From: Nitrospirota bacterium
GTDB taxonomy: Bacteria > Nitrospirota > Thermodesulfovibrionia > Thermodesulfovibrionales > UBA6898
Direction: 5' to 3'
DNA length: 64,000 nucleotides
Assembly: GCA_016235245.1 (NCBI GenBank)
Contig: JACRLO010000020.1
Coordinates: 62,001-126,000 of the forward strand
Under the pieces are notes generated by a model. That model saw only the letters and a program-made list of their open reading frames with translations, had not been told where the DNA came from and did not search any database. Position 1 is the stretch's first letter. The number at the start of each line of letters is the position of its first letter. The position numbers and the translations under genes are program-made. Shown piece by piece: positions 4,137 through 13,977 of this stretch.

Positions 4137-4802
4137 TCAGTCCAACACCTTGACCGCAATGCTGAGCAATTGTGCATTGAGACGCAGTCCGGCCCTGTCT
4201 GCAGCAGGCCGGTTGATCATCCAGCGGACCTTATCCCCGCTCTGCACCATCGCTATCATACCGCCTGAAGCAAGGAAGTTCTCGTGTTCAGACACCGTAA
4301 GAACCGGAGCATCCTTAAGACCAGATATAATCTTCCTGAAATTTCTTCTTTCTGATGCGCTCACAAAAAGCAGATGGCATGAGCCAAGATCCATATCTTC
4401 CTGATACACTCCGTAGTAGATGATCCTTACCGGCTTCATTCCGCTCGTTCGGACATCAGCCTGCAGGTCCTCCAGGGCATCGCCAAACGGAGATTCACCA
4501 ACAACGCCGATCACCATAGCACCGTCTTTTGAAAGCATGCGCTTTGATTGGGGCCACTGGACAAACTGCAGAAAGTTATAAAGATATACGGCCTTCAGCT
4601 CGTATTCCTTCACTACCTGCTGCTGTGCATAGCTGACCTTCTGCAGCGGTACAGCCCAGACAAACGAAAACAGTGAGATCAGGAAAACGAAAAGTATTGC
4701 AAGCCGGCCAAACTGCACATATCCCGCCCTGGCAGCACGGTCCTCAGGACAGGGCAGAGACACCTTATCCGTAATCAGCAGATTTCTCTCAGGTGAACGC
4801 AT
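4137..4802 (-). CDS. YfiR/DUF4154-family exported protein
   Basis: This 221-residue protein has a membrane/signal segment at about 33-50 (FGRLAILFVFLISLFSF). The mature part starts near YELKAVYLYNFLQFVQWP, the hallmark start of the YfiR (DUF4154) family, and continues with VIGVVGESPFGDALE, LLFVSASER and MIAMVQSGDKVRWMINR. In Pseudomonas, YfiR is a periplasmic protein that restrains the diguanylate cyclase YfiN. No YfiN is adjacent here; the downstream partner is a hybrid kinase. The start codon overlaps the TonB receptor's stop by one base and the stop lies one base before the kinase start, so the three are probably co-translated. Inference: a periplasmic go-between from receptor to kinase. 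The real start may be internal, since about 30 residues precede the hydrophobic stretch. Confidence 0.85.
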   Translation of the reverse strand: MRSPERNLLITDKVSLPCPEDRAARAGYVQFGRLAILFVFLISLFSFVWAVPLQKVSYAQQQVVKEYELKAVYLYNFLQFVQWPQSKRMLSKDGAMVIGVVGESPFGDALEDLQADVRTSGMKPVRIIYYGVYQEDMDLGSCHLLFVSASERRNFRKIISGLKDAPVLTVSEHENFLASGGMIAMVQSGDKVRWMINRPAADRAGLRLNAQLLSIAVKVLD

Positions 4803-6889
4803 CAGAAATGATATCTCAGTTCAGCCCAGAAGCTGCGGTGCTCCAACGGGAAGTCGTTCGGAATTACGGCAGGAGAAGGTTCTCTGTTATCAGAATCAAA
4901 GAGATTGCGAACTGCAATCGAGAAGTCCCAATGTTTTGCAATATTCTTTTTCTGCAGGGTCATATTAACCAGGTCGTATGCCTTGAGGTCAGAACGGATA
5001 TCACCGACAGCTCTGTGCCTGCTGCCAATCCAGAAATACTGTCCATCCAAAGACCAGTCAGGCATAAATTTCCAATGAGCATTAACGTAAAATTTCGCTG
5101 CAGGAACATCGGGAACAATTGCATCTGCTGTTTCATCAAATGAACGCTGATACGAATAGTTGGCGCGGAAACGGAGCTCGTTGGTCGCCTGCCATTCGGC
5201 CTCAATCTCGACTCCCTGCCCCTTCTGATCACGGGCATTCTGCGCCGTCTTTGAAGCCGCTGGCGCAGGATCAGACACATAATCTATCAGTCCGTTGATC
5301 CGGTATTTAAAGAGATTCAGACCCAGTCTCATACGCTTGGTAGGGCGGTAATCAAAGGCAAACTCGTACATATCTATAGTTTCCGGTTCGAGATTTGTAT
5401 TGCCGAGTACCGCCGGATTATTCTGATTGTACAGTTCGGAAAATGCCGGTGCCCTGAATGCCCTGCCATACATAAGCTTGGCAGTCAGCTCAGGAGTTGC
5501 GCTCCATACAACTGCAATCCTCGGGTTAACTGCGCTTCCAAAGTCAGAATAACGGTCATATCTGACCCCCGTGGTTAGCTCCCAGCCTTTTGCAAAAGAC
5601 CATTCGTCCTGAATTCCAGCATAAAACATGCTGCGGTGCTGGTCCTTCATATATACATAAGGCGTGTCAGAAATATCGACAAGGGACCCAAACTGGACCG
5701 GCACGCCAAGTCCGTAATTCTTGTGCTGAAAGGTATCCGTCGTGTAATAGTTCGTCCCTAACGACAGCCTGACCCTGTGATTAATAAACCCGCGATAGTC
5801 AGCTCCCAGCTCAAGACCGCTGTTCAATTCAGTGCCTCCTGGCATTCCAATCATCCTGCGAATATGTTCAGGCAAGAAGAAGAACGTATTTTCGAAACGT
5901 CCGAATGTGCCGTTCACCGTTGCCGTCAAGTCAAAGTCCGGCAGAAGATCCTTTTCCTTATAACTCAGCGAACCAAGTAACAAAAAATTATCGGTATTGC
6001 TCTTCCCATCATTCAGAACACCACTAATACCGGCGCCGAGGCCATTATCGATCATCCAGCTGTTATAAAGCCGGAAGGTGAATTTTCCCTTCCGCGCCGA
6101 CATGCCTGCGTTAAAAGTTTCATGGTGGGTGTCAATAGGCCCCGGTGTCAGAGACGGCGGTCCACTGCCAAGCGCATCCTTTTCTATGATCCGTCTATGG
6201 TCACCATCTCCTTTGGCGTATTCGGCGCTGAACGCGACATCCCAACCATTATATGTTCCGCCGTGCTGGGCCCATACATCATAACTGCCGAAAGATCCCC
6301 CTCGTATACCCATGTTCATGCCGTTAATCTCATTGCCTTCTTTTGTAATAATGTTGATAGCGCCTGCAAAGGCATCAGCCCCGAGCACAGCAGAGCCCGG
6401 TCCCCGGATTATCTCTATCCGCGATATCATCGACACAGGCATTCTCAAGACAAAAGGTTTAGCTCCATTAGAGTTAATCTTTAAAGGCTGCCCGTCAATC
6501 AGCAGGAGCACCTGAGGATTAAGCTGAGTATAAATACCGCGAATGGACCATATGGACGAAAAAATATTGCCGCTGCCAGGCTGCACATGAAGGCCGGGAA
6601 CGGTTTCAAGCACCTCATCCAGAGTTGTTGCGCCCATATCTTCGATATCCTGAGAGGTAATGACCGTTGCCACAGAAGGCGCGAGTTTTAAGGGTTTGAG
6701 AGTACCCGTGGCAATGGCAACATCAAGCTCAATCAACTCTGCAAGGCCTTTTGTAAGGAGTGACGACATGGCTACCCGTTGTCCGGAGGGCTCCGCTGCC
6801 AAACCCGTGGCAGGAGCAACGAACACAATTGAGAGAATAAGGATCAGGCTGAAGAAATTCTTTTGCAGCGGTATGGTTATTCCTGACAT
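4802..6889 (-). CDS. TonB-dependent outer-membrane receptor (copy 1)
   Basis: This 695-residue protein has a signal peptide (hydrophobic core about 12-30, ending near GLAAEP). A plug domain follows, with VATVITSQDIEDMGATTL, VPGLHVQPG, LLLIDGQPL and IEIIRGPGSAVLGADAFAG. A long beta-barrel then ends in LRYHF with the C-terminal Phe used for outer-membrane insertion. The family imports siderophores, corrinoids, metals or oligomers with TonB-ExbBD energy; no TonB genes are here. The sequence before the plug (ELIELDVAIATGTLKPLKL) has no canonical TonB box that I can recognise. It is closely paralogous to the receptor at 7076-9169 and overlaps the YfiR-like gene by one base. The substrate cannot be read from the sequence. 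Confidence 0.95.
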   Translation of the reverse strand: MSGITIPLQKNFFSLILILSIVFVAPATGLAAEPSGQRVAMSSLLTKGLAELIELDVAIATGTLKPLKLAPSVATVITSQDIEDMGATTLDEVLETVPGLHVQPGSGNIFSSIWSIRGIYTQLNPQVLLLIDGQPLKINSNGAKPFVLRMPVSMISRIEIIRGPGSAVLGADAFAGAINIITKEGNEINGMNMGIRGGSFGSYDVWAQHGGTYNGWDVAFSAEYAKGDGDHRRIIEKDALGSGPPSLTPGPIDTHHETFNAGMSARKGKFTFRLYNSWMIDNGLGAGISGVLNDGKSNTDNFLLLGSLSYKEKDLLPDFDLTATVNGTFGRFENTFFFLPEHIRRMIGMPGGTELNSGLELGADYRGFINHRVRLSLGTNYYTTDTFQHKNYGLGVPVQFGSLVDISDTPYVYMKDQHRSMFYAGIQDEWSFAKGWELTTGVRYDRYSDFGSAVNPRIAVVWSATPELTAKLMYGRAFRAPAFSELYNQNNPAVLGNTNLEPETIDMYEFAFDYRPTKRMRLGLNLFKYRINGLIDYVSDPAPAASKTAQNARDQKGQGVEIEAEWQATNELRFRANYSYQRSFDETADAIVPDVPAAKFYVNAHWKFMPDWSLDGQYFWIGSRHRAVGDIRSDLKAYDLVNMTLQKKNIAKHWDFSIAVRNLFDSDNREPSPAVIPNDFPLEHRSFWAELRYHF

Positions 6890-7075: not shown

Positions 7076-9169
7076 TCAAAAGTTATACCGCAGTTCGGCC
7101 CATACGCTGCGGCTTTCCATCGGGTAATCATTCGGCACTGCAACAGGAGCCGGTTCGCGTGCGTCTTTATCAAAGAGATTGCGAACTGCAAGGGCAAAGT
7201 CCCAATGCTGCATTATGTTCTTTTTCCGCAGTGTCATATTGACGATGTCATAATCTTTGATATCCGTCCGCGTATCACCGGTTGCCCTGTGTCTGCCGCT
7301 TACCCATAAATACTGGCCGTCCAGTGACCACTCAGGCATGAACTTCCAGTGAGCATTGACGTAGAGCTTAGTATCCGGCACATCTGCTACAACAACCCCT
7401 GTTTTTGTATCAGTTGCACGCTGATATGAAAAATTGGCTCTGAACCTCAGGGTGTCGGTTGCCAACCACTCGGTCTCTACCTCAAAACCCCGTCCCTTCT
7501 GGTCGCGGGCATTCTGCGCAGTCTTTGTCGTAGCCGGCGCGGGGTCAGCAGTATAGTCAATCAAACCGCCTATACGGTATTCGAAAAGATTCAGGCCGAG
7601 ACGCAAGTTTTTGGTCAGGTGATAATCAAAGGCAAGCTCGCAGGTATCGATCGTCTCGGCGTCAAGATTGATATTGCCGATGGTGGCCGGGTTATTCTGC
7701 TGGTGCATCTCTCCGAATGTCGGAGGCCTGAAGGCCCGTCCGTAGAGCAGTTTCGTCACCAGTTCAGGCGTTGTGTTCCAGACAAGTGCTACTCGCGGAC
7801 TGATTGCGCTGCCGAAATCGGAATAATCGTCGTACCGTAAACCTGCGGTCAGTTCCCAGTTCTTGGCAAATGACCATTCATCCTGTACCCCAGTATAAAA
7901 CAGCTTGCGGTGCTGGTCAGGCAGATAGACATACGGCGTGTCGGAGATGTCTACAAGCGGCCCGAACTGCACAGGGATGCCAGGCCCATAGTTTTTTTTC
8001 TGAAAAGTGTCGATATTGTAATTGCTCATACCGAAGAAAAGCCTGATCCTGTGCTCATGGAATCTTCTGTAATCACCGGCAAACTCAATACTGCCATTCA
8101 AATCTTTTCCTCCCGGCTGGCCAATGGCATTTCTGTAATCAGTAGGGAAAAAATAGAAGGTGTTCCTTGACCAAGCTGATGAACCACTGATTTTGGCTAT
8201 GAAATCAAAATCACTCAAAAGGTCCTTTTCAACATACGTTAGAGAGCTCAGCAGGGAGTAACCATCGGACTTGCTCTTACCACCATTAAGAGTGTTGCTT
8301 ATTCCGGCCCCTATCCCGTTCCCCATCCTCCAGAACCCGCTGAGATTCAGCCTGAATTTGTCCTTTATTACGGTCAGACTCGCATTAAGAGTCTCATAAT
8401 GCGTATCAAGCGGACCCGGTGCAAAAGAGGGAGGACCGATGCCAAGAGCATCTTTCTCGATAATCCTCTTTTCGTCTCCGTCACCTTTTGAATATTCTGC
8501 CCCGAGCGCCACATTCCAGCCATTGTATGAGCCGCCATGCTGCACCCATAGGTCGTAGGCGCCGAAGGAACCTCCCCGAATGCCTGCACTGCTGCCATTT
8601 ATATCACCGGCTTCTTTAGTGATTATGTTTATCGCTCCGGCAAATGCGTCTGCACCGAGCAGAGCAGAGCCTGGTCCCCGTATTATCTCTATCCTGGCGA
8701 TCATAGAGACAGGCAGCCTGAGGCTGTGAGGTTTGTTCCCATTATTATTGGTCCTCAGGGGTTGGCCGTCAATCAGAAGGAGCACCTGGGGGTTCAACTG
8801 GGAGTAAACTCCGCGTATGGTCCAAATCGAAGAAAATGTATTGGTGGCCGAAGGCTGAACGTGCAGGCCGGGCACGCTTTCCAATGCCTCATCCAGTGTT
8901 GCAGCACCCATATCCTCAATATCCTGGGCAGTAATAACAGTTGCTACAGACGGTGCAAGCTTCAGAGGCTTTGACGTTCCTGTGGCAAGCGATACCTCAA
9001 GCTCTACCAGTTCTGCAAGGCCCTTTTTCAGAAGCGAAGACATCCCTAATGGCTCAGGAGAGGCAGCGCCCCAGGTCAAAACAGGGAGAAATAAAAGAAC
9101 TGCCACAGTGAAGCAAAGAGTCTTCCCTGATAAGACCATAATGCGCATTGGCATCGTATGTTTCATCAA
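7076..9169 (-). CDS. TonB-dependent outer-membrane receptor (copy 2)
   Basis: This 697-residue paralogue of the adjacent receptor shares the same plug sequence almost word for word (LAPSVATVITAQDIEDMG, LLLIDGQPL, IEIIRGPGSALLGADAFAG) and the same barrel end (LRYNF). A signal peptide spans about 14-35. The open frame starts MMKHTMPMRIM; the internal Met codons at 6, 8 and 11 are alternatives. Divergence is concentrated in mid-barrel stretches, where extracellular loops of these receptors lie, so the two copies may take different ligands. A 186-base gap separates it from copy 1, long enough for a separate promoter. The pair most simply reflects tandem duplication followed by divergence. Confidence 0.95.
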   Translation of the reverse strand: MMKHTMPMRIMVLSGKTLCFTVAVLLFLPVLTWGAASPEPLGMSSLLKKGLAELVELEVSLATGTSKPLKLAPSVATVITAQDIEDMGAATLDEALESVPGLHVQPSATNTFSSIWTIRGVYSQLNPQVLLLIDGQPLRTNNNGNKPHSLRLPVSMIARIEIIRGPGSALLGADAFAGAINIITKEAGDINGSSAGIRGGSFGAYDLWVQHGGSYNGWNVALGAEYSKGDGDEKRIIEKDALGIGPPSFAPGPLDTHYETLNASLTVIKDKFRLNLSGFWRMGNGIGAGISNTLNGGKSKSDGYSLLSSLTYVEKDLLSDFDFIAKISGSSAWSRNTFYFFPTDYRNAIGQPGGKDLNGSIEFAGDYRRFHEHRIRLFFGMSNYNIDTFQKKNYGPGIPVQFGPLVDISDTPYVYLPDQHRKLFYTGVQDEWSFAKNWELTAGLRYDDYSDFGSAISPRVALVWNTTPELVTKLLYGRAFRPPTFGEMHQQNNPATIGNINLDAETIDTCELAFDYHLTKNLRLGLNLFEYRIGGLIDYTADPAPATTKTAQNARDQKGRGFEVETEWLATDTLRFRANFSYQRATDTKTGVVVADVPDTKLYVNAHWKFMPEWSLDGQYLWVSGRHRATGDTRTDIKDYDIVNMTLRKKNIMQHWDFALAVRNLFDKDAREPAPVAVPNDYPMESRSVWAELRYNF

Positions 9170-9308: not shown

Positions 9309-9905
9309 CTAAATCCATACAACTTTATTGAAATCTGTCATGCCCTCGACTATATGATTTGTCGTTCCACGATAACCGACCTTAAGCTCTGATTCAAGGT
9401 CATAGTATTTGAGACAGGTGCCGCAGGAAAATATTTCTACCCCCATCTCTGCCAGGTCTTTCAGCACCGGGATGATCTCCTCATTTATCGTAGTCAGTTT
9501 TACTCCGGCGTTCAGAAAGAAGATCGTGTGAGGTATCTCCCTGGTCACCTTCATTGTCTCGAAAAACCCTTTGACCAGCATTTTGCCGAGTAATTCTTCC
9601 TTGCCGAGGGTATCACTGCCAACGATCAGCATGAGAGACTTATCGGTCTCCTGTCTTTCTTCCAACCTCTTGTCTGCTGAATCCGTTCTGCCGTCATAGC
9701 CCTTCACAATCTTTACACGCCATTGATCCGGTTCCTTGACCGTCTCGGAAAAGAATCCTCTTCTTTTTGCAAACCATTCAAGATTTCCGGCAGACCCTTC
9801 ATTGTCCACGAGAATTTCGACGATCCCCGCGTCCATTCCGCTTAACGCTTCCTCTGCCAGCATTACCGGCTTTGGACAGCCAACTCCTTTTGCATCAATA
9901 ATCAT
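9309..9905 (-). CDS. yedF: YedF: TusA-like plus DsrE-like selenium/sulfur protein
   Basis: This is a 198-residue two-domain protein. The N-terminal TusA/SirA-like domain starts MIIDAKGVGCPKP, with the sulfur/selenium-carrying Cys at residue 10 in the CPxP motif. The C-terminal part (about 90-198) is DsrE-like, with ILVGSDTLG-type phrasing (LMLIVGSDTLGKEELLGK) and a cysteine pair CGTC (161, 164). This architecture is annotated as sulfurtransferase-like selenium metabolism protein YedF and often accompanies selD/selA/selenoprotein genes. None of those is visible here, but a tRNA-Sec-like tRNA lies just upstream on the same strand. Role inferred: persulfide or selenide relay. There is a GGGAGGTGTTCAT-type ribosome site upstream of the ATG at 9905. 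Confidence 0.92.
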   Translation of the reverse strand: MIIDAKGVGCPKPVMLAEEALSGMDAGIVEILVDNEGSAGNLEWFAKRRGFFSETVKEPDQWRVKIVKGYDGRTDSADKRLEERQETDKSLMLIVGSDTLGKEELLGKMLVKGFFETMKVTREIPHTIFFLNAGVKLTTINEEIIPVLKDLAEMGVEIFSCGTCLKYYDLESELKVGYRGTTNHIVEGMTDFNKVVWI

Positions 9906-9938: not shown

Positions 9939-10043
9939 TCATCGCTCAAAGGTGTCGATACGTTTGCAATCCGCTGCCTGAGAAACAAGAGTAATAAGAA
10001 CCAATAAAAGATAGCCGATTATTTTCCTGCTCATGCTTTTCAT
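9939..10043 (-). CDS. Tiny exported-peptide ORF (34 aa) upstream of yedF
   Basis: An ATG at 10043 preceded by AAAAGGAG at five-base spacing opens a 34-codon frame ending TGA at 9939. The peptide starts MKSMSRKIIGYLLLVLITLV and continues SQAADCKRIDTFER. It has a positive N-terminus, a hydrophobic core of about 12 residues and a single Cys (TGC) just after a possible signal-peptidase site, so it could be a small lipoprotein-like peptide although the lipobox is poor. It sits between the tRNA-Sec-like tRNA-Cys and yedF, same strand, 33 bases before yedF. It could also be a translated leader whose one Cys codon senses charged tRNA-Cys. Support is the ribosome site plus signal-like composition only; no homologue is recognised. 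Confidence 0.45.
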   Translation of the reverse strand: MKSMSRKIIGYLLLVLITLVSQAADCKRIDTFER

Positions 10044-10110: not shown

Positions 10111-10204
10111 TGGAGGGGAGTAGTGCGAATCGAACACACAATAGCCATTGTATGACTATAACGCTGGTTTTGCAGACCAGGTGGGGACCATCCCCTTACC
10201 CCCC
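10111..10204 (-). tRNA. tRNA-Cys(GCA) with tRNA-Sec-like architecture (selC*-type)
   Basis: The reverse strand folds as a cloverleaf of 94 bases including encoded CCA (10113-10111). The acceptor stem has 8 pairs, GGGGGGTA (10204-10197) with TACTCCCC (10022-10115 region, 10122-10115). The D arm is GGGG-ATGGT-CCCC (10195-10183). The anticodon stem CTGGT/ACCAG encloses loop CTGCAAA (10175-10169), so the anticodon is GCA (10173-10171). The long variable arm ATAGTCAT-ACA-ATGGCTAT (10159-10141) pairs over 8 bp. The T arm is GTGTG-TTCGATT-CGCAC. The discriminator is T (U73), as in tRNA-Cys. An 8/5 acceptor/T-stem, missing U8 and a long variable arm are tRNA-Sec features, whereas GCA and U73 are CysRS identity elements. 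Such minor tRNA-Sec-mimicking tRNA-Cys species have been reported from metagenome surveys. yedF is just downstream. Confidence 0.88.
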
Positions 10205-10308: not shown

Positions 10309-10641
10309 ATGATTCTTGATGTAATAATTGATAACGAGTCTTTATCTATAGATATCGAAGACCCCTTCCATCCGGACATCAATGCGCTATTCTTTCGGAT
10401 CGAACAATTTGTCCATACAAAGGGTACCGACATTTCCAGTCTGGATATAAAAGAGCTTATCCTCAGAATGATCAAGGGGACGGCTGGATGTGAACGGGGA
10501 TGTCCGGCAGATGCAAAAGGCATCGTATCACAAGGGTTTGAAGGGTTTGCTCTGGAGTATATTGAAGGCGGCATCCTCTCGGCAGATGCCTTGCTCTGCG
10601 ATGGTCGCAGTCTGGCCCTCAAAATGTTCCCCGATTTCTGA
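10309..10641 (+). CDS. Small protein of unknown function, divergent from the tRNA/yedF unit
   Basis: This 110-residue protein is not recognised. The ATG at 10309 follows AGGAGAAGGA and is preferred over the frame's upstream extension. The sequence is acidic at the N-terminus (DVIIDNESLSIDIEDPFHPD), with no signal peptide or membrane segment. It contains CERGC near residue 66 and another Cys near 98 (LLCDG), a possible metal or redox site. It lies between the tRNA-Sec-like tRNA and the LysR gene, divergent from the tRNA, with which it shares a roughly 100-base AT-rich promoter region (10205-10308). Context suggests a link with sulfur/selenium metabolism, but that is only positional. Confidence 0.75.
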   Translation: MILDVIIDNESLSIDIEDPFHPDINALFFRIEQFVHTKGTDISSLDIKELILRMIKGTAGCERGCPADAKGIVSQGFEGFALEYIEGGILSADALLCDGRSLALKMFPDF

Positions 10642-10730: not shown

Positions 10731-11639
10731 TCAGACAGCCGTTACCGCTGAAGCTGATTTGAGATATTCGAGAAATACGCTGTACAGAAAGGGAAGGCTT
10801 CTTTTCTTATGCGTAAGGGCGTAAAACCGCCGTTTCATTTCGAGGCCTGCAATGGCAACCTCCCTCAGTGTCTGGTGCTTCAGCTCCTCCTGTAGGGCAT
10901 AACGGGAAAGTATCGAGAGACCCATCCCGGCCTTCACTGCCTGCTTCACCGCATCGGTTGAGCTGAAATATCCGGCGACATTGAGTTCATCAATTGAAAT
11001 ACCCTTATCCTCAAGACACCTTTCCATCTCTTTTCGCGTCCCTGATCCTTCCTCCCGTAATACCATAGGGAAATCGATCAGAGACCTCAGAGGCATGATC
11101 TTCCTGTGAGAAAACGAGGGTGCGGCAACAACAATCAGCTCGTCATCAAGGAGTACATGCGCAGTAAGTTCCTTATGCGAGCTTTTTGTTCCGACAATGC
11201 CGAGGATCAGCTCGTGGGCCAGCATCTTCTCCATGATCTCTCCGGAGTCTGCAACAATGACCTGAAAGAAGGCAGAGGGATACTCTTTTCGGAAGCCTGC
11301 AATGACTGGCGGCAGGAGATACGTCCCGGGGATGGTACTCGCACCGATCACCAGTTCACCGGCGATCTCCTTTTTCACGTTTCCTACCGCTTCCCTGAGA
11401 TGTGTAATTCGTTCAACAATTTCAGAGGCGTGAATAAAAAGCACCCCGGCCTCTTTGGTAGGCCTGATCGTTCTGCCAAGGCGGTCAAAGAGAATACATC
11501 CCAACTCGTCCTCGAGAGATCTGATATGGTCGCTGACCGTTGGCTGAGAGAGGTGGAGCTCTTCCGATGCCCTGGTGAAGCTTCTGTGTTTGAATACTGA
11601 CAGGAAAACTCTGAGCTGATGTATATCCATCAAAGTCAT
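10731..11639 (-). CDS. LysR-family transcriptional regulator
   Basis: This protein of about 302 residues starts at the ATG at 11639, which follows the comEC stop by one base; the next Met at 11630 (MDIHQLRVFLSVF) is equally possible. The N-terminal winged helix is classic LysR: SFTRASEELHLSQPTVSDHI and LEDELGCILFDRLGRTI. The C-terminal inducer domain begins ELVIGASTIPGTYLLPP and contains VLREEGSGTR and AVKAGMGLSILS. The effector domain resembles CysL/CBL-type regulators of sulfur assimilation and the LysR group that accompanies selenium genes, consistent with yedF 0.8 kb away; this is inference from context. It appears to be the last gene of the cdaA-cdaR-glmM-comEC run, so it could be co-transcribed with it. 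Confidence 0.93.
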   Translation of the reverse strand: MTLMDIHQLRVFLSVFKHRSFTRASEELHLSQPTVSDHIRSLEDELGCILFDRLGRTIRPTKEAGVLFIHASEIVERITHLREAVGNVKKEIAGELVIGASTIPGTYLLPPVIAGFRKEYPSAFFQVIVADSGEIMEKMLAHELILGIVGTKSSHKELTAHVLLDDELIVVAAPSFSHRKIMPLRSLIDFPMVLREEGSGTRKEMERCLEDKGISIDELNVAGYFSSTDAVKQAVKAGMGLSILSRYALQEELKHQTLREVAIAGLEMKRRFYALTHKKRSLPFLYSVFLEYLKSASAVTAV

Positions 11640-11640
11640 T

Positions 11641-13977
11641 TTACCATATCGCAAATAGTCTCTTTATATTCTTCAGTTCCTTCTTTACCGTATCCGCCTT
11701 CTCAAGGGCATAATCCTGATAGGTCTTGACTACCAGTCCCTTTTTTGTCTCGATGATCTTGACTGCCCCATCCTGATCCGTCCTGTAGATGCGTGCTCCT
11801 GACAAGGCATCGAGCATCTCAGGCCGCGGATGTCCGAAAGCGTTGTCCCTTCCTGCTGATATAACGGCAATCGAGGGCGATATCGCAAAGAGAACGTTCT
11901 CATGAACAGACGACCTCCCCCCATGATGGGGGACCTTCAGGACATCGCTTCTGAGCCGTATGCCGAGATTTGAGAGATCTTCCTCTGCCTCCTCCTCAAC
12001 ATCTCCGGCAAAGAGGATAGAAGAGATCTTGCCGTTAAGTTTAAGGACCATCGAGGAATTGTTATCTTCAACAAAATCATTTCCTTCCAGCGTGTAAAAT
12101 TCAGGATATGGATGAAGCACCTCAATCCTGTAGTTCTTGCCCTCCGCAATATCTCCCCGCTCAAGAGTTTGGTGCTTCGCAGACAGGATCGTATCGTCAG
12201 GGTACTCAATGCGACCGCTGTCCCAAAGCTCCTTTACCGTGAACTGCTTCAAAATGCGCTCCATGCCGCCCGTATGGTCAGGATGGGAATGGGTAATGAC
12301 AAGGGCATCGACGTTTCTTTTGCCGATATAGTTGAGGAAATGCGCCGTTTCATATCCGCTTCTGCCGGTATCCACTACCATCACCTTCCCGTCAGGAAGT
12401 TCTGCAACAGCGGAATCTCCCTGCCCCACGTCGATGAAGGTTACGCTGAGATCCTTCGTTGAAAATACACTGATTATCAGATAAAGCAGAAATGGCAGGA
12501 AAGGCAGCAGAAGCAAACGCTTCCTTCTCCCCCAGGCGAGATAACAGAAAAACCCGGCATAGAAGAAGACGACCAGTGCCAGGGGAAATGCAGGTATCTT
12601 TATATCAGCAAACGGTATCTTCGCCATCAGCCTCACAAGCCGGAGAGAAAGATCCGTTGTCAGACCGACCAGAGGTGCAAAGATATAATAGCCGGTGAGC
12701 AGATACGCAAATGACGAGACAAGGGCCAGGGGCAGGACAACAAATCCGATCAGCGGGGCAGCGATCAGATTCGAAAGAGGGGAGATAAGAGAAACATAAT
12801 GGAAGTGATATGCCACAAGCGGCGCCGTACCCGCCGTAGCGGTCAGCGTCAGTTTCAGGGAACTTTTGGCAAATTCCAGAAGCTTATTCGCAGCAGCGAT
12901 CTCTTGCGGCCTGTCAGTTTCCCCCGTGCGCTGCACAGCAAACCCGATACATAAAACTGCGATGAATGAAAGCTGGAAGGTCAGTGTCATAATGACTGCC
13001 GGGTCCCAAAGAACAATCGCAAAGGCTGCGAGAAGGACTGTATTGAGCCAAAATCCCTTTCTGCCTATCAGAAGACCGAGGAGAAAAAGACTGATCATCA
13101 CAAAGGACCTGACCGCTGGGACACTCCCTCCTGAAATGCCCAGATAGAGCACCATGAGCGGAAGACAGATCACTGCGGCAACCTGTCTCGGGCTCACGGA
13201 CAAGGTCAACCGCTGAAAAACAGTATATGGCAGCCTCCTGATCAGAAACAGGCAAAGGGTAAAGATAACGACTGACAAAAGGCCGAAGTGAGTGCCTGAA
13301 ATACTGAGGATATGGGCAAGACCTGTTGCATTGAAGGCATTCTTCTGATCTTCATCAAAATGAACCTCTCCAATAGTTACTGCCGAAATAAAATCAGCAC
13401 TATCCTTGTCGAAACGCCCCATAAGGTAATCATGCAGGGAAGCCCGCGACCGTTCGAAGATATTCCCGAAAACACTTTTGCCTTCTTCCTGCCCCATAAC
13501 CCCGATAACGCGTGCAGCGAGAGAAACCCTTCCGTTGCTGCCGGGGTTCAGGCGGCTTCTGTCCTTTCGCGTTTCAACAAGAAGCTCATAGGTATCGTCC
13601 GTATCGAACTCGTCATCGGCACGAAGCCTGATCGTCTCACCCTCCAGGGACCCGATCTCCTGGCCTGTCTCTCCATCAACGGCCTGTTCGACCACAAAGT
13701 TCTGCATGGCAGGAGCAGATGGAGGTGCTGCGCTCCCGGGAAGAAATCTGCCTGTTATCTCCATTTTCCTGTTCCAGGGCTGCGGTACCTGTTCCGCAAG
13801 AGGCGCTCTGAATTGCGCATAGACGATACCCATGACGACAATAATGATCCATATGCTTTTTTTCTCTTTGATAAGCCAGGCAGCAGAGCCAAGAAAAAAA
13901 AGAATACTGCAGAAGAAAAAATACCGGGAGATGAAAAACAGGATCGTGCCGGAAAGAAAACTCAGCAGGAAGGGCAT
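11641..13977 (-). CDS. comEC: ComEC/Rec2 DNA-uptake channel protein
   Basis: This 778-residue protein joins all three ComEC parts. There is an N-terminal membrane and OB-like DUF4131 region (about 1-190). The competence membrane core (about 200-490) has AHILSISGTHFGLL and YLGISGGSVPAVRSFVM. A C-terminal metallo-beta-lactamase-like domain (about 510-740) has FIDVGQGDSAV, VVDTG, THSHPDHTGG and KVPHHGG. ComEC carries single-stranded DNA across the inner membrane during natural transformation, and the lactamase-like domain is thought to degrade the other strand. Its length is normal and the metal-binding HxHxDH motif is intact, so it looks functional. The ATG at 13977 overlaps the glmM stop by one base. 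No other competence genes are in the window. Confidence 0.96.
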   Translation of the reverse strand: MPFLLSFLSGTILFFISRYFFFCSILFFLGSAAWLIKEKKSIWIIIVVMGIVYAQFRAPLAEQVPQPWNRKMEITGRFLPGSAAPPSAPAMQNFVVEQAVDGETGQEIGSLEGETIRLRADDEFDTDDTYELLVETRKDRSRLNPGSNGRVSLAARVIGVMGQEEGKSVFGNIFERSRASLHDYLMGRFDKDSADFISAVTIGEVHFDEDQKNAFNATGLAHILSISGTHFGLLSVVIFTLCLFLIRRLPYTVFQRLTLSVSPRQVAAVICLPLMVLYLGISGGSVPAVRSFVMISLFLLGLLIGRKGFWLNTVLLAAFAIVLWDPAVIMTLTFQLSFIAVLCIGFAVQRTGETDRPQEIAAANKLLEFAKSSLKLTLTATAGTAPLVAYHFHYVSLISPLSNLIAAPLIGFVVLPLALVSSFAYLLTGYYIFAPLVGLTTDLSLRLVRLMAKIPFADIKIPAFPLALVVFFYAGFFCYLAWGRRKRLLLLPFLPFLLYLIISVFSTKDLSVTFIDVGQGDSAVAELPDGKVMVVDTGRSGYETAHFLNYIGKRNVDALVITHSHPDHTGGMERILKQFTVKELWDSGRIEYPDDTILSAKHQTLERGDIAEGKNYRIEVLHPYPEFYTLEGNDFVEDNNSSMVLKLNGKISSILFAGDVEEEAEEDLSNLGIRLRSDVLKVPHHGGRSSVHENVLFAISPSIAVISAGRDNAFGHPRPEMLDALSGARIYRTDQDGAVKIIETKKGLVVKTYQDYALEKADTVKKELKNIKRLFAIW

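Follow-up and report, generated by a model that had tools for sequence, protein, structure and literature searches.

A tRNA that joins a Sec-like body to Cys identity has reportedly been named tRNA-ReC by Vargas-Rodriguez et al. (2018), and CysRS is said to charge it. The tRNA-ReC of Desulfotomaculum nigrificans carries a GCA anticodon on a Sec-like body and, in the portion of PMC11415595 that deals with it (citing earlier work), the Desulfotomaculum homologue is delivered by SelB instead of EF-Tu and decodes Sec UGA with Cys. The selC* tRNA-Cys of Mukai et al. (2017) are likewise Sec-like tRNAs with Cys identity, from phyla including Nitrospirae; the relevant excerpts of PMC7609411 describe a modified 8/4 form with a bulged A51a, with selB* or cysS* neighbours in some deltaproteobacteria. 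Finally, a tRNA-Sec with a GCA anticodon, inserting Sec at UGC, is mentioned for Aeromonas salmonicida in the same portion of PMC11415595.

The window considered here, i.e. the whole stretch of 64,000 nucleotides that was analysed (C20:62001-126000 of a 3.25-Mb assembly in 41 contigs, about 96% complete), carries a tRNA that belongs to this known class. The function of tRNA-ReC was tested in D. nigrificans; the Nitrospirota member is described from its sequence. The original prediction had read it as a hybrid of tRNA-Sec and tRNA-Cys and connected it with the work of Mukai and colleagues, and rightly so: a Sec-type fold goes together with U73 and GCA, and the genome has a separate tRNA-Cys and tRNA-Sec. 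Its description of the role as unsettled is somewhat outdated in view of the SelB delivery and UGA-to-Cys decoding reported for the Desulfotomaculum homologue in the part of PMC11415595 cited above. The hybrid is quite probably a recoding tRNA of the tRNA-ReC / selC* tRNA-Cys class, providing a Cys fallback at Sec UGA codons.

Structure and identity elements of the hybrid tRNA

The elements of the tRNA, with the means by which each was located, are the following:

10111-10204 (-): tRNA-Sec-like tRNA-Cys (tRNA-ReC type), 94 nt, CCA-complete (ARAGORN, fold, covariance models)
10197-10204 (-): 5' side of the acceptor stem (8 bp), GGGGGGUA, paired to UACUCCCC at 10115-10122 (fold, covariation)
10171-10173 (-): anticodon GCA, in the loop CUGCAAA (ARAGORN, sequence)
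10141-10159 (-): long variable arm, 8 bp in the MFE fold (fold, covariation)
10123-10139 (-): T arm, 5-bp stem without bulge, loop UUCGAUU (fold, T-stem comparison)
10114 (-): discriminator U73, followed by an encoded CCA at 10111-10113 (sequence)

A tRNA-Cys(GCA) was called by ARAGORN at exactly 10111-10204 (-), and all the Sec-like traits that had been predicted, as well as the Cys anticodon and discriminator, were located by ARAGORN, folding and the sequence itself. The MFE is -38.3 kcal/mol (z -3.4 against shuffles), and in this fold the junction between acceptor and D stem consists of one unpaired A, with no U8. The only credible Rfam model is that of tRNA-Sec, RF01852, with 43.5 bits (E 1e-7), slightly below its gathering score of 47; the general tRNA model RF00005 remained below its threshold at 10111-10204.

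Whereas an ordinary tRNA-Cys has a 7-bp acceptor and a short variable loop, the hybrid has 8 bp and a long arm. It shares with the canonical bacterial tRNA-Sec (RF01852) the 8-bp acceptor, the 5-bp T stem and the long variable arm, and differs from it in having GCA instead of UCA, U73 instead of G73 and a shorter D stem. Three features of the broad tRNA-ReC / selC* class are found: a Sec-type body (8-bp acceptor, long variable arm), Cys identity in the form of U73 and GCA (the class allows GCA or UCA), and a canonical tRNA-Sec plus a normal tRNA-Cys in the same genome. Related Desulfotomaculia members also share the 8-bp acceptor and U73 with the window tRNA.

Two T-stem forms can be distinguished. 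Because its T stem is unbroken, the window tRNA has the plain 8/5 form; it has neither the bulged A51a of the modified 8/4 deltaproteobacterial selC* subtype nor an adjoining selB* or cysS* (nor an adjoining selB or cysS), both being traits given for that subtype in the excerpts of PMC7609411. An unbroken 5-bp T stem was found in 43 of the 44 Nitrospirota hybrids and in both Chloroflexota members found; unlike these Nitrospirota members, most of the Desulfotomaculia-type members found are bulged, as are about half of the Bacillota members (mostly with C) and 10 of the 11 deltaproteobacterial ones (with A in nine of the 11). The bulge is described as dispensable in the published excerpts.

The perfect pairing of GCA with UGC/UGU, and the suitability of U73 and GCA for CysRS, would also be expected of a minor Cys isoacceptor of the ordinary kind, which EF-Tu would bring to UGC/UGU and which would have a Sec-like body only incidentally. 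This explanation is unlikely: a normal tRNA-Cys is already available in the host, acceptors of 8 bp persist throughout the order and beyond, and the linkage to selenium genes would be left without explanation. Moreover, E. coli EF-Tu is stated to bind Ser-tRNA-Sec about 100-fold more weakly, the 8-bp acceptor being the reason given in the relevant excerpt of PMC7609411.

Host tRNAs and selenium machinery

Far from being the genome's only tRNA-Cys with a normal structure in its relatives, the hybrid keeps its Sec-like fold in relatives and coexists in the host with an ordinary tRNA-Cys(GCA) at C20:27745-27817 and a canonical tRNA-Sec(UCA), carrying G73, at C7:39335-39428. A second hybrid copy, 97% identical, lies at C1:168864-168957. 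The anticodon-arm segment of the hybrid, GGUCUGCAAAACC, is the same in the host tRNA-Cys, and a full-length CysRS is encoded in the genome.

These data also bear on an anticodon-changed tRNA-Sec inserting Sec at chosen Cys codons. Such a tRNA would have a Sec-type body and GCA, as the hybrid does, and the A. salmonicida tRNA, a Sec-type tRNA with a Cys anticodon, offers a similar case in the portion of PMC11415595 that treats it. It is nevertheless a highly improbable explanation here: the window tRNA bears U73, as opposed to the SerRS-recognised G73 of the host tRNA-Sec, a normal UCA-bearing tRNA-Sec coexists with it, and GGUCUGCAAAACC is an exact match to the host tRNA-Cys.

The recoding tRNA remains the preferred explanation, and the literature on its homologues indicates how it would most likely work. 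CysRS would charge the hybrid via U73 and GCA; the 8-bp acceptor and Sec-type body would make it a ligand of SelB instead of EF-Tu; and SelB, together with a SECIS hairpin, would deliver Cys-tRNA to the UGA codons meant for Sec. Selenoproteins would then be made with Cys instead, as a fallback for times when Sec-tRNA runs short. The LysR_Se/yedF setting suggests that expression of the hybrid may be under selenium control. In favour of this reading are the Sec-type fold with U73 and GCA, the tRNA-Sec, tRNA-Cys and CysRS of the host, the UGA in SelD and the linkage to selenium genes; against it stand the lack of selA and selB in the host assembly, the retention of the tRNA in one of eight genomes of the genus and the near-universal presence of Sec-type SelD in non-carriers, as well as the fact that GCA has no regular pairing with UGA.

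Neither selA nor selB was found in the host assembly (SelB by its profile cut-off), while 58 of the order's 61 genomes have a SelB above the cut-off. In relatives from the same genus, selA and selB adjoin queC (gene names in this block come from the sequence, and from the profile model in the case of selB); when a 7.7-kb selB-selA-queC stretch was compared with the host assembly, no more than two matches resulted, both short and weak (cf. L255, L256). Since the block around them, including queC, is absent too, the simplest reading, not a proven one, is that selA and selB are probably missing through an assembly gap; true loss is unsupported, the neighbouring genes being absent as well. The assembly that lacks the selB-selA-queC block does contain tRNA-Sec and a SelD with a UGA.

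The host also encodes a truncated CysRS paralogue (C18:14133-15353) of 405 aa, with no anticodon-binding domain and a score of 289.7 bits, below the cysS cut-off of 340 bits. Relatives of this paralogue occur in about 19 of the 61 genomes of the order, and its candidacy as a dedicated charging enzyme for the hybrid was rejected, as its distribution does not track the tRNA.

Conservation and distribution

A covariance model based on 21 relatives separated hybrids (74-107 bits) from tRNA-Sec (62 bits at most), with no score in between, and by this model the hybrid is present in 28 of the 61 genomes of the order. Within the genus, it is kept in one genome out of eight, that of the host, and is therefore dispensable. 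In another genome of the genus, the 3' half of a hybrid (L069, G003:C12:39103-39148), 93% identical over 46 bases, persists as a decaying remnant.

The fold is conserved and supported by compensatory changes: 108 cells changed on both sides, versus 29 in shuffles and 4-12 in slid controls. Changes on both sides affect 17 of 28 pairs, and paired cells amount to 97.3% versus 86.3% in shuffles, in an alignment of 31 sequences (the host tRNA-Sec among them) that was fitted to the model, so that structure is somewhat favoured. In the variable arm, all four modelled pairs covary among relatives. A chance origin is excluded, because homologues occur in 28 of the 61 genomes and the pairs covary. With the variable arm left out, identity is 85% among Nitrospirota hybrids, 68-74% between these and hybrids from other phyla, and 70% between these and the tRNA-Sec of the order.

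A pattern scan of genome contigs gave, among the matches listed (at least 119), about 65 true hybrids, from Nitrospirota, Bacillota, Desulfobacterota, Actinomycetota and Chloroflexota (phyla as indicated by the record titles). The word "rare", which the original prediction had applied to such tRNAs, is too strong for at least about 65 real examples, among the at least 119 matches listed, in at least five phyla. Compared with what the consulted portions of PMC11415595 and PMC7609411 describe, the unbulged Nitrospirota form, the Actinomycetota and Chloroflexota members, the occurrence in two copies and the selenium-regulon setting are new, although the 2017 and 2018 originals may include part of this. 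The small class of natural recoding tRNAs hereby gains a Nitrospirota branch that is well conserved, an 8/5 form without a bulge, additional phyla and a selenium-regulon setting.

Some members deviate in size or sequence. The hybrids L308, L309, L310, L312 and L301 are 119-127 nt long, the variable region forming longer or extra hairpins in L309 and L310, and at position 33 of the anticodon loop, where U is near-universal, L300 (G024:C115:5663-5757) has a C. Spread of the hybrid by plasmids was also considered and dropped, the plasmid search giving no match, and none of nine matches in viral contigs has the full 8/5 hybrid fold. One tRNA-rich IMG/VR contig of 236 kb (L360) encodes at 5328-5420 (-) a class II tRNA with GCA and U73; its Ser/Leu-like body and 7-bp acceptor make it a different kind of long-armed tRNA-Cys.

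SelD with an in-frame UGA

In the SelD of the host, the active-site motif (CAG-UGA-AAKF) includes a UGA in frame, which makes it a target dependent on decoding by SelB. All 28 hybrid carriers of the order, and 44 of the 45 carriers outside it, have a SelD with TGA in frame, the exception being a 1.5-Mb assembly with no SelD over the cut-off. As a discriminating correlate of the hybrid, however, this SelD bootstrap was discarded, for nearly all non-carriers have a UGA-containing SelD too: in the order, the 29 non-carriers with a detected SelD all have the Sec type. In a Bacillota sample, about 95 of 99 SelD-bearing genomes have the in-frame UGA. Sec is found in 19% of the SelD genes of 223 reference prokaryotes, a figure whose comparison with the carriers is confounded by lineage. 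A Sec-containing SelD is, then, a precondition that the carriers satisfy and not a discriminating trait; a special link between hybrid and SelD is possible.

Selenium-gene setting

The genes and reading frames nearest to the tRNA are the following:

9309-9905 (-): yedF, selenium-metabolism sulfurtransferase-like protein, downstream of the tRNA (TIGR03527, 186.6 bits)
10731-11654 (-): selenium-metabolism-associated LysR regulator (LysR_Se), upstream of the tRNA, start codon uncertain (NF040786, 294.5 bits)
10309-10641 (+): divergent ORF of 110 aa between regulator and tRNA (no NCBIfam or Pfam match)

LysR_Se, tRNA and yedF thus follow one another on one strand, both proteins scoring above their cut-offs (250 bits for NF040786, 110 bits for NCBIfam TIGR03527). 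The proximity of yedF, predicted at about 0.2 kb, was borne out: the gene starts 205 nt beyond the tRNA and has the same orientation. A 44% identical relative of the 110-aa ORF (L217) is divergent to the second hybrid copy.

LysR_Se or YedF lies within 1.5 kb of 14 of the 30 hybrid loci of the order, versus none of 30 tRNA-Sec loci and none of 36 loci of other host tRNAs (some of the 36 overlap). Further frequent neighbours are a double-cubane reductase with its activase (also at the second copy of the host), a split-Soret / C_GCAxxG_C_C protein and a TsuA/YeeE-type transporter, and in other phyla YedE, YedF and SelB. As the neighbour families were drawn from the hybrid loci themselves, only LysR_Se and YedF were used as evidence of linkage, because these are selenium families on independent grounds. 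Judged from gene order, their position suggests that the hybrid may be expressed under selenium control. A more specific proposal, possible but doubtful, is that tRNA-ReC belongs to a selenium-responsive regulon (LysR_Se, YedF, YedE) and serves chiefly to have Cys inserted by SelB at the SelD UGA; a cell that makes its selenophosphate synthetase as a selenoprotein could in this way resume Sec synthesis once selenium starvation ends.

Gene order also touches on a non-decoding role, as a sensor of selenium or cysteine charging or a tRNA-like leader controlling the selenium gene behind it. Of 89 loci (some duplicate loci being in the set), 56 have their first downstream ORF on the strand of the tRNA, and in 27 it lies at most 60 nt away; between tRNA and yedF of the window lies a 34-codon ORF (10043-9939) whose terminal UGA shares the frame of the yedF start, 12 codons further on. 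Such a role is nonetheless improbable, since the tRNA retains its full cloverleaf, its anticodon, U73 and CCA, which charging and decoding require, the downstream genes vary widely, and the leader ORF is not conserved at other tRNA-yedF loci, for which reason it was also set aside as a candidate in its own right.

Two minor observations concern the surroundings of yedF. The 34-codon ORF (9939-10043, minus strand) has an SD-like AAGGAG, a signal-peptide-like sequence and one Cys codon. Past yedF, the minus strand encodes two similar proteins in tandem, at 4802-6889 and 7076-9169 (695 and 697 aa), which appear to be TonB-receptor-like.
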